From the NCBI RefSeq assembly GCF_947623445.1, contig NC_135243.1, positions 9,364,501 to 9,428,500 on the forward strand: a stretch of 64,000 bases of DNA, read 5' to 3'. The notes under the pieces were generated by a model. The model was not told where the DNA came from and made no database searches. It saw only the letters and a program-made list of their open reading frames with translations. Of this stretch, positions 27,401 to 37,218 are shown in pieces. A program made the translations under genes and the position numbers. Every line of letters begins with the position of its first letter. Position 1 is the stretch's first letter. Source of the stretch: Clavelina lepadiformis. Lineage: Eukaryota; Chordata; Ascidiacea; Aplousobranchia; Clavelinidae.

Positions 27401-27803
27401 GCTATAATGGCATACTCGGGCTGGAAACTTTTCAATGTGATTCTAGGTTCTTTGCTTGATGCTTTCATCCATTGTGGTGGTTTGAATAGAACAAGTTAAA
27501 ATAGATAAGACAAGATAAGCTCTGCATCTGCATTAATAAACTTTGCACACTGACAAAGATATTTGTGCTTTTGGGCGACACAATATCATATAAATCATTG
27601 TCGCTTAAATCATATGATTTGAATAAACAACCATGCTAATTTGGATGTAACACCACCAAGCAGCTTCTTCCAGCGAGCGGAATTAGCCGAGTGAACCACC
27701 AAAATAAACAAATGAATTGTGTAAGCCAGCCATGGTGATAGCAACTCAATAGACATCTTATAAGCGGTAGTATTGCTTATGTTCTTGGTTACTTGTATAA
27801 TAG

Positions 27804-28324
27804 TACGGTAGCCTGTAAAGGCCACAACAATTATAATTTGGGTTCCGCAAAATATTTATGATCACCACAAAAATATTTCACGTTAGCGCAAAATATTTAT
27901 GATCACCACAAAATATATATTTTTCTCAGCAAAATATTTTAGAAATTCACAATATATATTTTGTCTCCCTCTAAAATTATTTTGTGTTTTCAAATTATTT
28001 TGTGCCTTGAAAAAATATTGCGACTTCGAAATATTTTGCGAAGTCGAAATATATTTCGCTGTGAAACTTCCACTACCACCACAAATATAAATTCGCCGCA
28101 CAATATTTTAGAATCGCCGCACAATATTTTAGAATCTCATCGCAACATTTCAAAATCTGTGCTTACCGTATGGTAGGCGTAGTTGATGAGGTCTTCGGGA
28201 AAGGAATAAGGTTACCGGTCACAGCCACAAATAGTGAGAGATAGTAAGCTTTTGCAAGCCTTAACAAGCTTAGGTCTAGGCTACATTGTAAGGTCTTTTG
28301 CAAGTTCAGTATGCTAACAAACTT
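27804..28324 (+). repeat. Left terminal inverted repeat, 521 bp
   Basis: Starts TACGGTAGCCTGTAAAGGCC. The outer 300 bases are crowded with AATATTTT-type motifs, including a doubled block AAATATTTATGATCACCACA and a palindrome CGACTTCG...CGAAGTCG around 28021-28046. It carries two copies of a 21-bp unit (28094-28114, 28115-28135). Such subterminal repeats usually bind the transposase (family knowledge; inference here). Confidence 0.93.
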
Positions 28325-29230
28325 GTAAAGAAAATGTTGAAGGCTTTTGTCTTGATTACTATTAGGTATATAGGCCAAAGCTGGGTGGAACATTATAAAA
28401 AGTTACCTGGAACAGGACCAAACGCTATAGACACGTTTCAACCAAAAGTTAAAAATATTGTAGCCTTCCCAAATTAATAAGGATGTAGTATACAACCTTG
28501 CAGTTGAAGACATAGTTTGAGTAGTTGGGTTTCATTTTACAAAGGCATCATGTGGCTGTGCACATATATACTAAACCCACATAATATATGATTGTCACTT
28601 TTTTTAAGTGCAGTTGTGTAATTTCTGTCACCAATTCTCCAAAATAGCTGTGTGCTCAGCTTCCCTTTCCCAGCTTCTTCTTATAACTCTTCGACACGAT
28701 TGAGTATTTTTATCAAGTTTTTTGAACATGTTTTGTTAAATATTCTTGCAAATGTGACATCAGCAAACATCCTTAAAATAGCAGTGGGCTATACTGGGGT
28801 GATTTTGACTTTTTTCAAGTAACACAACAGAACTGGAGTTTAAAAGGTGCCTATGAACATACCTAGGAACGTGCAAAAAAATTTTTTTGATTTTGTTCAA
28901 ATTCCGGATGGAGCCCGGACTTTATATGAAAAATTCAAGATGGCCGCCATACAAATTGACGAATCTGCAATAAATTTACTTCCAGTCAAGCTTTTGGGCT
29001 GATTTTGGTGTCAAAAGAAGAAGAAAATTGAGCCTGTTACTTTAAAACAGCAACAAAAAGCCCAGTATGCTTGAAAGTTCCCTAAAACATTGAAACTATT
29101 ATATTTTGGTCATTATTTTTCATAGTTTTTTCATTTTTGTTGGTGCAACTTGAGATTACTGGTCGCATCCAAGAATAATGATGACAATTTCAACACTATA
29201 TACAAATAACTTGTTACCGGTATATGAAAT
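28325..29230. other. Transposon interior, non-coding
   Basis: AT-rich sequence between the left TIR and the third reading frame. I see no coding signal. It would be the 3' flank of the minus-strand third frame. Confidence 0.4.
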
Positions 29231-29930
29231 TCACATAAAAGTGTCATGAAATACACCAGAGATTTGAGAAACATTTATACACTTTAGTAACGACACAATG
29301 GTCGTCACACCTTGGAACACCCATTCAGTCTCTACTGTGACAGGGGCGATTTGAACAGGAATAACATCCTGAATGTCATCTCTTTTTGGTCTCCTCCACA
29401 TGGTATTGTTGTTATCGTTAACCCGCTGGTATTGGTCACATTGTACAGTGCCATCATTGTTTAAATGGCAGACCCTTGCCAAAAACTACTGACGTTGATT
29501 GTTTTCTCCGTCCCACACCACAGCCACATTCGTTCCTATAGGGTATTCTTCATGGAGTTCAGGAATTGCTGCCGCAATACACATTTTCACTGGTTGATCT
29601 GTGTCACCAGAGGAAGCTGCAGCAGCAGAGGTTAAGATGGCATATACCTCATCTTCTGTTGGGAAGATGGTCCCAACATCCTCATCCTCAGTTCCAAGAA
29701 TCACAGCTAGGTTCACCAGCATGGTATCTACATTCAAGCTGTTTACTTTGTAGAGGCTAGGATTTGCCTGGCTGTCGTGTGGATGAATCATCCCTTGGTA
29801 CTGGATCTCCATGCGGACGATTTTTCAGCGTGGATGATGATGCTGTTGGCAGAGCTCGGAGCTCTTCTACTTTTGTAATTGGGCCCCCATGTCCCTTACA
29901 TTGATCCACCAGGTGGTTATATCCTTAGTT
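29231..29930 (-). pseudogene. Third reading frame of the transposon, broken
   Basis: Coding-like minus-strand sequence in pieces. The first piece (about 29930-29770) reads LVDQCKGHGGPITKVEELRA and follows a possible acceptor. The next (29812-29486, another frame) includes LGTEDEDVGTIFPTEDEV and YPIGTNVAVVWDGENNQ. After a single in-frame TAG at 29486-29488 the same frame continues FLARVCHLNNDGTV, MWRRPKRDDIQDVIPVQI to 29231. The VAVVWDG...FLARV part looks like a small barrel of the SH3/Tudor/chromo type. I do not know the family. One frame change plus one stop suggest decay, although the TIRs are young, so it may be an older passenger or a fragment of another element. Confidence 0.45.
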
Positions 29931-30742
29931 ATAAAACAGGATTGTACTTGCGTATAATTTGTAGCCAGTATAAGCTATTTAGTCCAGTGGTTATGAAATT
30001 GGAGTGCACGTAAGGTTCTTAAGGTGGCACGAAAAATTCTCTTTGAGCTATGACGACGACAGCTGGATTTTTTTCACTGGATGGTTTCGCTACTGGGTTG
30101 ATTATTTCACAACCAAGTTCAATTGCTGTCGGTTGGCAATGGTTTGTTTTCCAAATTGCAGTCCAATGATGAAAGTTACACGCACATAACTTGTTGTTTT
30201 GTTTTATTTTGCAATGGGATAGAGACACAAGTTTTTTGGCACCATTTCTAAGAGTTTAAGAACCCCTAATTTCGTATTTTTGACTTGAACTATTTAAAGA
30301 TGACCTAAATATGAAGAACTATGTTAACTTTCCACGTTATTTCACAAATACTATTATTGCTATCATGCATGTTTTAAGCTCTCAAAGTTTGACACTTTTT
30401 CCTGCTCATTAAATGTTAGTGACCATTGTGTTTTATTGTGCTATAACTGTAATAGTTAGCATCATAACTATGGCACAGCACAACTATTGGCGAAAAATAA
30501 ACAATGCAATTGTAGCGATAAGTCCAGCTGCTACACAGCAGTAATTACAATGATACATCACAATAATTATGATGAAGTAGATGTTTGTTTGTGTATTTAG
30601 TGACGTTACCCGTTTGTTCATTATTTAACTATAGTTACACTATAATCGTCAGTTTACTTATATAAAAAAGTGCTCATAGTCAGTTTCACTTGTTGACAAA
30701 TTGTCAGATTCCAGTACATTAGAATATTTAATGATCTGCACA
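29931..30742. other. Transposon interior, upstream of the HECT gene
   Basis: Non-coding sequence that should hold the HECT-gene promoter and any first exon of the third frame. No distinct motif was recognised. Confidence 0.4.
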
Positions 30743-33700
30743 ATGTATTGCACAAACTGTGGAATAGTACTCTCTTCAACACATTTATTTTGCGGCTTTT
30801 GTGGGCAAGGTAAGTTCAGTTTAATCTTAGATACATTATACCATGTGACAGGTCTATGCAATACATGGAATAAGTATAAAGTTTTTTGTAACATATTACT
30901 TATGATAAACAGAATTATTGATTGATTGGATAATTCAATTAAACTGTAAGCTGTGAATCATATTACCATAAAAAGGTTTCTGAACGCATGTTTGATTGTC
31001 ACTATTAAAGTAAAAGATGCCAGTCAAATTGGCTCGTTCAGATAATTGGAAACTAAGGGTATAATTGTAACCAAAATTTTCCTTAGCCAGGAATCTTCCC
31101 GCCTTAACGGCTAGTCACTCAGCCGGTTTTGCCTTGTTAACTTTTAATGGCATTTTCTTTCATAAAAACATCCACCTTACTCTAAAACCAAAACGTAACT
31201 ACCGACAACCGTCGCCCAGCCGAGCACAGCACTACACCAAACAAATTCCACGCGATAAAGGAATCAATGTGGAATGTAAAACACGATACTAATTAGGCCT
31301 TTGGGGTAACTACGTCAGACGTCACAAGAAATTTGATAAAAACAGGTGTACAAGAACAAGTAATAGAACATAAACAAGTAAAATATGGCAGACAGTGAAC
31401 ATGCATAAAAACAACACAATGCAAAGAAAAGACGGTGTATAATGTGGTGTCTACAAAACAGGTGCATAAAAATAATCCCGTGACATAATGCTTTATTTTA
31501 ACATCAGTCATCTGGTAATGATTCAAAGTTAATAAATTAGTGACATTTTTGTATATCAATTAATTTAATACATATGTAATTATACATTTTTGACAGGTAA
31601 GGTTTTTGGCAGGTTTGAACAAATGCTGGGGAAATTTACTTAATTTAATTTACATTTTGTTAATTTGAGAAACGCTAAAGATAAACACCTTACCAATTTT
31701 TGAAGAATGTGGGATTTACTTGCGCAGAACATTTGCAATCTACCAGTTTAAGATACGGTATTGATTAGCCCTGTTGCAAAGTTTAGAACTAAAAAATGTT
31801 GCTGTGCATGTTTCTGGTTTTGTTTCAGTTATGGCTTTTTTTAGAGAAACCTCATTCCAGTATTGAGACACAGAACTTCTGTGATGAGACTAGTTCAAAG
31901 GAAAACAGAAGTAACTGCCATGACAACTTGATGGACAACAAATCAAATGGTTTGAAAGTTTAAAGTTATTTAATTGTGTGTAATTATTTTACATTAGATT
32001 TCTAATTGGGTATAAGTTGATAGCGAAATCGGGTGGAAGTTACAGACAGTCTAAAGTGCAGTGGTTCCCAAACTTCATCTACTCGCGTACCATTTTTTTG
32101 GTTTATGCAGCGTTCTTGTACCACCTACATTGCAGGACTATAAAAACTAACTTCAAGGATTTATTACCTAGTAATAAATGACGTTCTATTTCGTCACAAA
32201 GAAACGCTTGTTTCATGATCCAATGTGTCAATACCTTAAGGAATTAGTATTCAGTAGGGAATAAAGCATGAAATTTGCTCATACTCTACCTAATTTATGT
32301 GAATTAAAATATTGCCGACCATAATAAAAGATCATTTGCGATCCGTTTGGTGTAAACTTGATAAGTTGCTGGCGTACCACAAGTGGTACGTGTACCATAG
32401 TTTGGGAACCACTGCTATAGTGGTATTGTAACGATTTGTTAGAGGTTAAAAGCACTTCATCTTCAAGAAAATGTAGCCCTTTACATATGTTTTGTTACAG
32501 TGCTTACCAGTGCAAGTTTTTTTCTTTTTTGCAGTTTTGTCTATTTCTATTTGAAATAACTTACATATGCAGCATCTTTTTGGGACAATGAGAAATTGTT
32601 TATCTGGTCATAATGCTAATTGATGCAACATATAACTGAAGAGTTTATTAAAAAAAAACTTTGAACAGCAAAATATACAAAATTGTTAAGCAAGTGTTTT
32701 AAGGCGCCATTTATGCTTGCAAAAAGGCCGAATTTCTTTGTTTATTTTTTTATAAAGCCAAATTACTAAAATGCAACAAATCAAAGTTCCGTATGATAGC
32801 ATGATAGTAATAAATACTAATTTATATTGACAGATACACATTCTTTGAAGCGAAAAAGTGATGTCATGTCATTCGGACAATACAAAGCTGTGAAGGGATC
32901 TCAATGGAAAGAAAGGGTAACAAAAAAGTCAAAACCAAATGAAGTAGGAGTTCAAATAGGAATGCTGGAAAGAGGTGGAAAAGATTTTGAATTAAAGCCT
33001 ATTAGAAACCAAACAATTTTACTAAACATTGGCAAAACAGAATCTGTTGACTCAATTTTGGAAAAAGCAGTTAAAAAATACTTACAATTTTATCCAAAAA
33101 GTCATGATGATGGGGCAAGTTATTATCTTGCATTCAGAGATGGTCGTATTATTGATCTATTGCCGGGAACTGATGAACCATTTACCATAATTAAGTACAA
33201 AGAAAACATTGGAAAAGATTACAGTAGAATTTTCCTGTATCTTGTTAAAGAAGAAAAAGAAGATGCAGCAGAACATCAGGAAGATGACTTGCTTCCCGAT
33301 TTTCCCTTGACCACACTTTTTAGTGACCCACATAATTTTATTGATTGCTTTAGCATCGATGAACTTCAAAAGACTGCTAATAAAGAATGTGACAGTTCAC
33401 AAAAGAATGAGTCTCAAATTAAAAAATATGAAAACATAAGTGAAGTCCTGTCTGATTTGAACAAAAACATTGATGATGCAGAACAACTGTACATTATTGT
33501 GAGAAGAAGTGCACCTGTTGCGAGATACCTTGCCCTTTGGCAAAGGGAGGTGAACACTAAAGGTTCGGCAAATAAAAGAGTGGTTGTTAAATTTCAAGGT
33601 GAAAATGGTATCGATTCAGGTGCAATGGCAAAAGAATTCTTCGCCATTGTAGTTCGCTTAATTCGTGAACATTTTTGTCCTGATGGTAGTCCAGTTGATT

Positions 33701-34599
33701 CCATGCTTTATGTGCAGAATGGTTATTTTAAAGCATGCGGTGAAATAATTGCTGCAAGTTTAGTGCAAGGTGGGCCCGCTCCATTTTGTTTTCACTCCAA
33801 TGTGTTCAAAATGTTAACAGCAATAAACTCTATTGACATTAGAAAGCTTGATCTTCACATTCACTTCACAGAATCCGAAAAGCAACTTATACAACGTATT
33901 TCAGATGATCCGTCAAATCCATCTTATAGTGACACTATTCTAGAACATGGGTACACTGGTTTAGTGTCTGCTGATCATACTACTGACATAACTCGCACAC
34001 TCATGGTCAGCATCACTAACAGGCGGTTGTGTTATCTTAAAGAATTTTTATCTGGATTGGAATTGTTTGGAATATTTGAAGCATTACAAAGGAATCCATT
34101 GCTTTTTGAACCTCTTTTTATCACTTCGTCTGAGCGTGCTGTTGATGCAAATTATGTTGCAAGTCTGTTAATTCCCAATCACTCTGATGAAAATTCCTCG
34201 AAAAGAATTGTGGAAGAAAAAATAATGGATAACTTTGTGGATTTTTTAATGCATTTAGAGGACAATAAGGTAAATGTAACTGGACATGAAATCTTGGCTA
34301 ACGACGAGAATGATTGTCATTTAATTTCATGTACTCCTCCTGACTTGACACCTGCAGGTGTGTTGGGTTGGCTAACAGGCCAGAAACACAGGCCTATATT
34401 TGGGAACGACCTTCAAATTTCGGTGCAGTTCGATCACTACTGTTTGGAAAATAATCCAAAACACAGTATTTGCTACCCTGTAGTTGGAGCATGCGGCAGG
34501 GTTGTTACACTACCAGCAAAGCACATGGAGAAAGAAAACGATTTTAGGTCTATCTTTTTAACGGCAATATGTAATGCTCAAGCATTTGGACTGCATTAA
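30743..34599 (+). CDS. Transposon-encoded HECT E3 ligase-like protein
   Basis: Three exons, 30743-30809, 31845-31949 and 32834-34599, all joined in phase 1, give 645 residues. Exon 1 encodes a 22-residue zinc ribbon (C3, C6, C17, C20) with a strong donor GGTAAGT. Exon 2 is a polar linker; its acceptor TTTTTTTAG is good but its donor GTTTGA is weak. Exon 3 has a ubiquitin-like-looking block (residues about 120-195, with LLPGTDEPFTI and YSRIFLYLV). The HECT domain (about 285-645) starts at VVVKFQGENGIDSGAMAKEFF and ends in QAFGLH. The presumed thioester cysteine is C611 in VVGACGRVVTLPA. HECT ligases pass ubiquitin from E2 to a substrate through this cysteine. It resembles G2E3-like HECT proteins. 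Intact and probably functional; substrate unknown. Confidence 0.85.
32059..32414. mobile_element. hAT-type MITE in HECT-gene intron 2
   Basis: A 356-bp element with ends CAGTGGTTCCCAAACT and AGTTTGGGAACCACTG, the common hAT terminus. It is flanked by CTAAAGTG (32051-32058) and CTATAGTG (32415-32422), an 8-bp duplication with one mismatch. It lacks coding capacity. It landed within the larger transposon, in an intron, so it does not break the gene. Confidence 0.88.
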
Positions 34600-34968
34600 A
34601 ATTTTATATTTTACATTAGTTTAGTTGTTGAACCTATTTCACTTGCCTTCAATGTGTAATGACCACTGTTTAATGTTTATAAACAAAGCTTGCCAAACTG
34701 AGTTTTTCCTGTAATTAGTAATTTTTTTGTGTGTTTAGCAGTATTTATGTTGCATGCTTGTTGTGGTACAGTAGATATATTTCTGTGAGATTTTCAGTAT
34801 TCTTTTCAAGTGTAATGTTTCTGTGAGCTACAGTTGTATTTCTTCAAGTGAATCTGCTAAAATTTCGATACATAGTTTTTCAGTGTAATAGAATCGTGCT
34901 TATGATGAATGCAATACAAAAGTAATACAAAACACGACATTTATGTTGATAGACTTAAAATGATAGGC

Positions 34969-34974
34969 AATAAA
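34969..34974 (+). terminator. Candidate poly(A) signal of the HECT gene
   Basis: AATAAA lies about 370 bases after the HECT stop codon and 40 bases before the end of the convergent integrase frame. It is the first canonical signal I noticed in that interval. Confidence 0.45.
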
Positions 34975-35013
34975 CTTTACATTACTTGCTCACACAGAAA
35001 TAAATAGTTCCGT

Positions 35014-36456
35014 TTATCGGTCTCTGGCTACATTCATAAGCATTTTATACAGATCTAAGGCTTCAGTGCAACAAGATGGCACTCCTTGTCCAAGTTCAGA
35101 TGTAGCATAATCAAAATATTCTTGATAGTCTTCAGTTTCAGTTGGTTGTGATATTTCAGCCAATACCAAACTAATGTTGTGTGGTGCAACGTTTTTTAAT
35201 ACGCCAGAAATTCCTCCATATCTTTCTGGCATGGAATATAGTAAATCTGGCCGTCCTGCAATTACATTATGTCGAGATTTTCTTATTCGGTGAGTATTCC
35301 AGTGGTCCTTGAAAAAATCTAAGTCATTTTGAATTAAACATGAAAAGCAATACCACAAGCATTCTTTGCTGAGTGTTTGGGAGAAATCCACAATACCTCG
35401 AAACTCAAGGTCACTAAAAAAGTTGCGCCACCAACAGGCACGAAACCTGGAGAATATTGACCACCAGCTTTCTATCCGCTGATTTCGGGGTGATGGTACA
35501 TAACGATGCGAGTTAATGTTATCTCGAAAAAAGCACTGCGCTGCTGCCAACAATCCATTTTCTGTACCCAAATCTGATACTACTTCAATCGGACAGCCTT
35601 GGAAGTGAGTGACAGCTTTAATATACATATTAGCGACAACATGTGGACATTTGTTTGATCGTGTAACATTAAGCCACAGCACTTTTCGACTAAATCCATC
35701 AATTGCACCATGTATAGAAAATCCGAATGGTTTCAGCTTGTCGTAACCATCTGTGTGCCATGCATAATTTGGCCCAGGGTTGTGATACTCTCTTCGCCTT
35801 AAACGGTGAGCTCTTCGAGCCTCACACCCTTTCGGATCAATATTACGTAGTACATCAGCTACATACAACCTTGGTACTCTTAAACCTTCCATTTGTAATG
35901 TGTGCCAAACTGACCGATATCCACCAAAAGAAGAGGGTCCATCTAACAACTCCTCGATACGTTTTTCTGCCTGAAATAAAACGGTGATGTCTTTTTTCCA
36001 GCCACATTTTCTTCGCAGTCCAATTTTGTGCAATCGTCTCTTTAAAGTTCTCATACTGATTGCGTAGTTATGACGACTGTGTAGCAATTGTAAAATTTCT
36101 CCATACTCATATCCTGAATGGAAATATTCAGATATTATTTGATCTTGATCCAAAGTAGTAGCTGCAAAACATAAAAACAACATGTGGACTTTTGAGACAT
36201 GACTTGGCACGTTGTATGATATATTTTTTACTAAATAATAATTCGTTATTAATAATAATACACAGACACACAGTCGATTTAGGTAAAACATTTCTTGTTG
36301 GTGTAAAAAAGAAAACAAAAAATATGTTAGTCTACAGCCAAATTTTCATTAAAATATTTATATCTTCACTTGAAAGGTACGCTACTCACCGTGACCACAG
36401 TGTGAACATATCACAAAAATGTCAGGTATTTCATTATGGCACTCAACACAATTCAT
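35014..36456 (-). CDS. Integrase-core (DDE) transposase of the transposon
   Basis: Two exons on minus: 36456-36390 (67 nt) and 36161-35014, phase 1, giving 404 residues. Exon 1 encodes a 22-residue zinc ribbon with cysteines at 3, 6, 17 and 20. Exon 2 starts with an HTH-like region (YFHSGYEYGEILQLL, ISMRTLKRRLHKIGL). An rve/RNase H-fold core follows with D160 in WHTDGYDKL, D219 in VVSDLGTENG and E253 in RNQRIESWW. The rest (WRNFFSDLEF, HNVIAGRPDLLY, ERYGG) is the family's conserved tail. Such enzymes cut at the TIRs and join the element to target DNA. An alternative ATG at 36318 lies inside the intron and gives no zinc ribbon, so I prefer the spliced start. The gene is convergent with the HECT gene. 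Intact. Confidence 0.9.
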
Positions 36457-36640
36457 TGCAATGAAGATCAGTTTTCACACTAAGAAGGTACACTTCATTT
36501 TATAAAACAAATTTCTGAAAAAGTCAGTTAAAATTTATGCTGTTATGAACAGCTTTGGTCTTCGAGACAAAAAAAACAACATAGCCTATAGCCCTACACC
36601 TTACATTCGGTAGGCCTAACCTATACAGCCAAGCCCTAGA

Positions 36641-37212
36641 AAGTTTGTTAGCATACTGAACTTGCAAAAGACCTTACAATGTTTAACGTGTAGCCTACAC
36701 CTAAGCTTGTTAAGGCTTGCAAAAGCTTACTATCTCTCACTATTTGTGGCTGTGACCGGTAACCTTATTCCTTTCCCGAAGACCTCATCAACTACGCCTA
36801 CCATGCGGTAAGCACACATTTTGAAATGTTGCGATGAGATTCTAAAATATTGTGCGGCGATTCTAAAATATTGTGCGGCGATTCTAAAATATTGTGCGGC
36901 GATTCTAAAATATTGTGCGGCGAATTTATATTTGTGGTGGTAGTGGAAGTTTCACAGCGAAATATATTTCGACTTCGCAAAATATTTCGAAGTCGCAATA
37001 TTTTTTCAAGGCACAAAATAATTTGAAAACACAAAATAATTTTAGAGGGAGACAAAATATATATTGTGAATTTCTAAAATATTTTGCTGAGAAAAATATA
37101 TATTTTGTGGTGATCATAAATATTTTGCGCTAACGTGAAATATTTTTGTGGTGATCATAAATATTTTGCGGAACCCAAATTATAATTGTTGTGGCCTTTA
37201 CAGGCTACCGTA
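36641..37212 (-). repeat. Right terminal inverted repeat, 572 bp
   Basis: Reverse complement of the left TIR. The 51-bp length difference is fully explained by four instead of two copies of the 21-bp unit (36839-36922) and one 9-bp insertion near 36685-36693. Three substitutions were counted over the aligned bases. Any frame inside it mirrors one in the left TIR and is not a gene. Confidence 0.93.
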
Positions 37213-37218
37213 TAATAG

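Follow-up and report, generated by a model that had tools for sequence, protein, structure and literature searches.

An IS3EU-like transposon of the sea squirt Clavelina lepadiformis with convergent genes for a DDE integrase and a predicted HECT ubiquitin ligase

The element and its two genes

In a 64,000-nucleotide stretch of the Clavelina lepadiformis genome (hereafter the window; NCBI RefSeq assembly GCF_947623445.1, contig NC_135243.1, positions 9,364,501 to 9,428,500, forward strand), we examined a 9,409-bp element that occupies window positions 27804-37212, starts with TACGG and ends with CCGTA. It contains two genes, one for a DDE integrase and the other for a predicted HECT ubiquitin ligase (Table 1). 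A reading of the letters alone (the original prediction) had described a young DNA transposon with two open, intron-containing, convergent genes, and the gene models bear this out: both are open, their introns have GT/AG borders, and the spliced HECT translation (649 amino acids) is identical to the NCBI protein of LOC143451854, isoform X1 (P0001).

The boundaries of the element are equally well defined. The exact 6-bp TAATAG target-site duplication (TSD) that had been noted is present on both sides, and the flanks, once joined, align through the insertion point with another copy of the surrounding interspersed repeat that has a single, diverged target, that is, with an empty site. The inverted ends lie where they were first placed (27804-28157 and 36859-37212; 354 nt, 98%), with 7 mismatches when these 354 nt are compared without gaps. 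Aligned over their full lengths of 521 and 572 bp, the terminal inverted repeats (TIRs) have 3 mismatches over 521 aligned positions, plus 51 gapped positions, so that the predicted count of three substitutions is right once gaps are allowed. The difference in TIR length arises in part because 21-bp units are present in 2.1 copies on the left and 4.1 on the right. Matching subterminal repeats of about 20 bp in both TIRs are candidate transposase-binding sites. Together with the TSD and the empty site, the three substitutions support a young insertion, as does the finding that one other copy, L015, differs from it at 1 of 1,764 positions of the HECT main exon.

The integrase (404 amino acids) differs at two residues from LOC143446142 (P0061) and matches PF24764 with 106 bits (cut-off 26). 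The DDE triad was correctly placed at D160, D219 and E253, which are invariant in all 19 rows of the integrase alignment. Neither a sequence-profile search (E 0.01) nor Foldseek (E 0.001) matched the integrase to a PDB entry.

The HECT protein has a complete predicted two-lobed HECT fold at approximately residues 256-649, the rows of the structural alignment covering residues 256-645. Cys615 sits 34 residues before the end of the protein and is conserved in all 20 rows that reach it in an alignment of 22, a position from which we infer that it is the catalytic cysteine. The original prediction had named C611; the cysteine is there, but it is residue 615 in the 649-residue model and 611 only if counted from the second methionine (residue 5). 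The predicted fold and the position of this cysteine thus back the HECT assignment, though the Pfam score by itself falls below the cut-off. Between the zinc ribbon described below and the HECT region, residues 95-200 of P0001 form a further conserved domain whose order of strands and helices, read by eye, is ubiquitin-fold-like.

The two genes share one more property. The first exon of each encodes little besides a CxxC..CxxC zinc ribbon, read by eye at the integrase N-terminus, and each ends in phase 1. Inspected by eye, the gene-model proteins listed from ncbi or eukprot sources open with such a ribbon in 7 of 10 HECT relatives (P0001, P0031, P0036, P0040, P0184, P0186 and P0196, the models of P0060, P0187 and P0189 having none) and three of five integrases (P0061, P0154 and P0157; not P0104 or P0146). 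Pfam scored one of these ten ribbons above its cut-off (P0184) and eight below, and gave P0196 no score. Dendronephthya gigantea has ribbons on both HECT relatives (P0036, P0186) and an integrase (P0157).

Table 1. Features of the window element, its copies and a second family (window positions unless a contig is given)
Feature	Position	Strand	Remarks
Interspersed repeat hosting the insertion, left portion	27664..27803	.	Resumes from 37219 onward
TSD, left, TAATAG	27798..27803	.	Exact
Left TIR, 521 bp	27804..28324	+	Starts TACGG
Subterminal ~20-bp repeats, left TIR	27848..27920	+	Candidate transposase-binding sites
21-bp units, left TIR	28093..28136	+	2.1 copies
Passenger stretch with interrupted open reading frame (29231-29818, -)	29280..29918	.	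Separate repeat
HECT gene exon 1	30731..30809	+	Start codon, zinc ribbon (Pfam Zn_Ribbon_1 below cut-off), phase 1 end
HECT gene exon 2	31845..31949	+	
HECT gene exon 3	32834..34599	+	Conserved domain, HECT N- and C-lobes, Cys615, stop codon
Integrase gene exon 2	35014..36161	-	Helix-turn-helix-like region (Pfam below cut-off), DDE core PF24764, stop codon
Integrase gene exon 1	36390..36456	-	Start codon, zinc ribbon (Pfam Zn_Ribbon_1 below cut-off), phase 1 end
Right TIR, 572 bp	36641..37212	-	Finishes CCGTA
21-bp units, right TIR	36838..36923	-	4.1 copies
Matching subterminal ~20-bp repeats, right TIR	37096..37168	-	
TSD, right, TAATAG	37213..37218	.	Exact
Copies with exact 6-bp TSD			W (window element), L010, L011, L012, L013/14, L016, L018, L019, L029, L030
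Both-ended copies without exact TSD (7)			L009, L015, L017, L020-L023
Second HECT-plus-integrase element, 10,294 bp	C5:9564623-9574916		TATGG / CCATA ends, duplication AATGTG
Nested second-family region	C5:9561605-9582198		L034, L035, L036, L038

Copies in the Clavelina genome and constraint on the genes

We searched 209 Mb of the Clavelina genome, the published assembly of which is described as spanning 210.1 Mb (PMC10884593), with a 397-bp query from the end of the element. At least 43 places match, many as facing pairs, a count that is a lower bound (40 of 63 first-look candidates were scored); given these matches, the inverted ends are not a product of chance. The check suggested with the original prediction was a search for further copies with other 6-bp duplications, and for empty sites. 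Exact 6-bp TSDs flank 10 of the 17 copies with both ends, in ten different sequences, and the empty site of the window element (W) is the one described above. One copy, L010, is nested in the right TIR of another, L009, and is flanked by the duplication CTTACA.

An exon-by-exon check of nine copies showed both genes intact in W, L015 and L017; in L013, the HECT main exon is preserved over about 506 residues. In L010, L011 and L018, most of the HECT main exon is missing through a deletion with a common junction and the integrase is intact, yet these copies occupy different targets (CTTACA, AAAAAC and TATATG). L012 and L016 share another deletion, together with a 49-nt gap in the integrase, and their targets also differ. 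Because copies with common junctions lie in different targets, neither gene seems to be needed in cis; full copies may supply each product, or the HECT gene may be dispensable. Copies lacking HECT or integrase genes had been named in advance as evidence against a two-gene transposon. Such copies exist; the ones we examined derive from the two-gene element by internal deletion.

To compare rates, we left out positions near gaps and badly aligned stretches. Between W and L017, differences number 11 in 1,764 positions of the HECT main exon and 4 in 1,149 of the integrase main exon, against 68 in 4,119 of noncoding element DNA (Fisher p 0.0012 and 0.00025, respectively). The HECT main exon was also slower than noncoding DNA between W and L013 (p 0.026) and between W and L015 (p 0.038). 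The TIRs diverge more than the remaining noncoding DNA. For HECT, the four copies that are full or nearly so give Nei-Gojobori ratios between 0 and 0.61, which reflect a handful of changes. We regard these comparisons as modest evidence of constraint.

Several loci have a more complex history. A full copy, L017 (C2:7237012-7246799), is bordered on the left by the initial 115 bp of another TIR; this flank and the lack of a target duplication suggest a rearrangement between copies. The short deletion copies L020-L023 and L028 (C1:3.24-3.65 Mb and 1.46 Mb) have a common left flank, the inverse of which stands on the right side of L020 and L022, and this locus is probably duplicated and partly inverted. 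The open reading frame at 29231-29818 was a candidate for a third gene of the transposon, which we rejected: the frame is interrupted, its two pieces have no Pfam match, and the stretch that holds it is absent from L012, L013, L016 and L017. The DNA of this passenger stretch also lies outside the family, with 13 genomic matches of which five are in copies of the window element and the rest at other loci.

The same gene pair beyond the window family

Relatives of the two proteins appear to travel together elsewhere. We compared the exact sizes of the contigs from which relatives came (82 distinct sizes for HECT, 120 for integrase) and found five in common: 6344, 14204, 31883, 35566 and 192101. 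In 400 offset controls the mean was 0.57 and the maximum 4 for all sizes, and 0.125 and 2 for sizes of at least 5 kb. HECT and integrase genes therefore likely lie on the same five other contigs, as read from equal sizes rather than from gene distance or orientation. Across these five pairs and that of Clavelina, distances among HECT proteins correlated with those among integrases (Mantel r 0.89; 4 of 720 permutations as high), a result over six pairs in which one close pair weighs heavily. No relatives were confirmed in viral contigs (queries P0001, A1 and A2) or in prokaryotic genome contigs (A1).

The Clavelina genome contains further PF24764 loci, among them a second HECT-plus-integrase element with TIRs of about 1.3 kb (93%). 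We describe this family from its HECT and integrase stretches rather than from full gene models. The HECT C-lobe stretch scores 35.7 bits, above the Pfam cut-off, and the integrase stretches lie convergently on the opposite strand; an N-lobe-like stretch (L034:1656-1949) has no Pfam match. The element is nested in an identical copy of itself, the outer copy having unmatched flanks (TCTATC, CACTAA). The HECT stretch has three genomic matches, two of them the element and its identical copy, and each adjoins such an integrase. The C-lobes of the two families show at most a weak similarity (hhalign E 0.07). At L033 (C5:15690578-15694254), an integrase fragment lies between inverted repeats of a related family, and no HECT match was found there with the protein panel or the second-family HECT stretch. 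The original statement that DNA transposons rarely carry such an enzyme thus needs narrowing, as the pairing recurs around this integrase type, in the second family and likely, in relatives from other organisms, on the five contigs.

Possible roles of the ligase and comparison with known systems

The explanation that we favor, tentatively and at somewhat less than even confidence, is that this IS3EU-like transposon is likely cut and pasted by its DDE integrase and that the predicted HECT ligase would act in trans on the transposase-DNA complex. The first exons of the two genes are of one kind, which makes it probable that the ligase meets the same DNA ends as the transposase, or the same partner. 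The shared zinc ribbon would bring it there, and its simplest use would be to ubiquitinate the transposase or other end-bound proteins, so that the strand-transfer complex would be dismantled after strand transfer or the dosage of transposase limited. Copies without HECT would borrow the ligase from full copies, much as integrase-defective copies would borrow transposase.

A number of observations weigh against this explanation. The HECT protein scores 17.1 bits against a Pfam cut-off of 23.9, a HECT match at E 0.01 is found in only 3 of the 22 proteins aligned, and sequence searches of solved structures hit the N-lobe only (E6AP, E 0.0035 and 1.1e-4). The structure model of the integrase is poor (mean predicted local distance difference test score, 61), with IstA as the best PDB match (E 4.7e-3). 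Zinc-ribbon matches are mostly under Pfam cut-offs, and the models of some relatives have no ribbon. As to constraint, the integrase rate between W and L015 does not differ from noncoding DNA (p 0.56), the first two HECT exons, both small, have not changed more slowly (1/78 and 2/103 between W and L017), the ratio of nonsynonymous to synonymous rates comes from few changes (0.31 between W and L017, from 5 synonymous and 6 nonsynonymous), and the ratio between L017 and L013 is 0.61 (1,509 of 1,761 nt).

The spread of copies that have lost HECT is also compatible with a dispensable passenger, captured long ago and carried but unused by the transposon. We consider this improbable, given that the HECT main exon has changed less than noncoding DNA of the element, that the gene is likely paired with integrase on five other contigs, that the two proteins diverge in a correlated way, and that a second family has the same layout. 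A ligase in the same element that is aimed at the host, where it would ubiquitinate a factor of silencing, chromatin or repair and so secure the transposon's expression or its repair after excision, seems on balance unlikely, albeit less so than a passenger. A trans-acting ligase serving all copies would fit the TSDs and the deletion copies here too, and the TET/JBP gene of fungal IS3EU elements has been proposed by its authors to allow escape from methylation-based silencing (PMC12730594). Because fungal relatives carry an enzyme with such a proposed role, we judge a host-directed ligase to be nearly as good an explanation as our preferred one; the zinc-ribbon first exon common to both proteins points instead to a shared partner. 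That the HECT gene is a host gene merely surrounded by the transposon, as its NCBI annotation as an ordinary uncharacterized locus (P0001) might imply, we regard as very improbable. Capture of a host gene had been anticipated as a possible refutation, but among 25 genomic HECT matches we found no host gene of this type: 19 lie in TIR-bounded copies, two are beside a decayed integrase on C1, and the other four have stop codons. We reject host-gene capture on this distribution.

Ubiquitin is a main cellular control of DNA repair, of silencing and of the dismantling of stable protein-DNA complexes. It is conceivable, though we would not put it at even chances, that animal IS3EU elements have a HECT gene opposite the transposase as an ancestral core component, that they would move by turning over their own transposition complex under the control of ubiquitin, and that many HECT "host genes" annotated in corals and sea squirts belong to transposons. 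An animal transposon group with its own HECT ligase would make the use of ubiquitin by DNA transposons directly testable: it would offer intact copies that are young, natural controls in the copies that lack HECT, and another, distant family. If true, it would also call for caution with the HECT genes of animal annotations, some of which may be mobile.

Like the HECT E3 ligases HUWE1, NEDD4 and E6AP, the window protein has a two-lobed fold and a C-terminal cysteine; it is only 12-18% identical to them in the structural alignments listed, and differs by its N-terminal zinc ribbon and by the location of its gene in a transposon. RAG1, a transposon-derived recombinase, also has ubiquitin ligase activity, but there a RING domain built into the recombinase itself is the ligase, whereas the window element encodes a separate HECT protein. 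In the open-licence PMC literature, we found no paper naming both IS3EU and HECT (Repbase Reports were outside the search) and, among the matches listed with their titles and abstract openings, no description of a HECT gene in a transposon; the word HECT is absent from the main text of PMC10045372 and PMC12730594. IS3EU families are described as having TA..TA termini and usually 6-bp TSDs (PMC10045372), and fungal members bearing TET as ending in TAYGG..CCRTA (PMC12730594). The window element resembles IS3EU/GingerRoot in its 6-bp TSDs, TA..TA (TACGG..CCGTA) ends, integrase-type DDE transposase and long TIRs, and the ends of the second family (TATGG..CCATA) fit the fungal pattern as well. The kinship first suggested is therefore supported by termini, TSD and integrase, that is, by features rather than by placement in a clade. 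A further trait of the superfamily is the lack of an HHCC motif upstream of the transposase core; what the eye finds at the N-terminus of the window integrase is the CxxC..CxxC ribbon. In the fungal elements, a TET/JBP dioxygenase gene is reported between oppositely oriented transposase and alpha-kinase genes (PMC12730594), so that there, too, a gene for a protein-modifying enzyme is oriented opposite to the transposase. The enzymes there are a kinase plus a dioxygenase; in the window element, which looks like a member of IS3EU, the gene in opposite orientation encodes a predicted HECT ubiquitin ligase.

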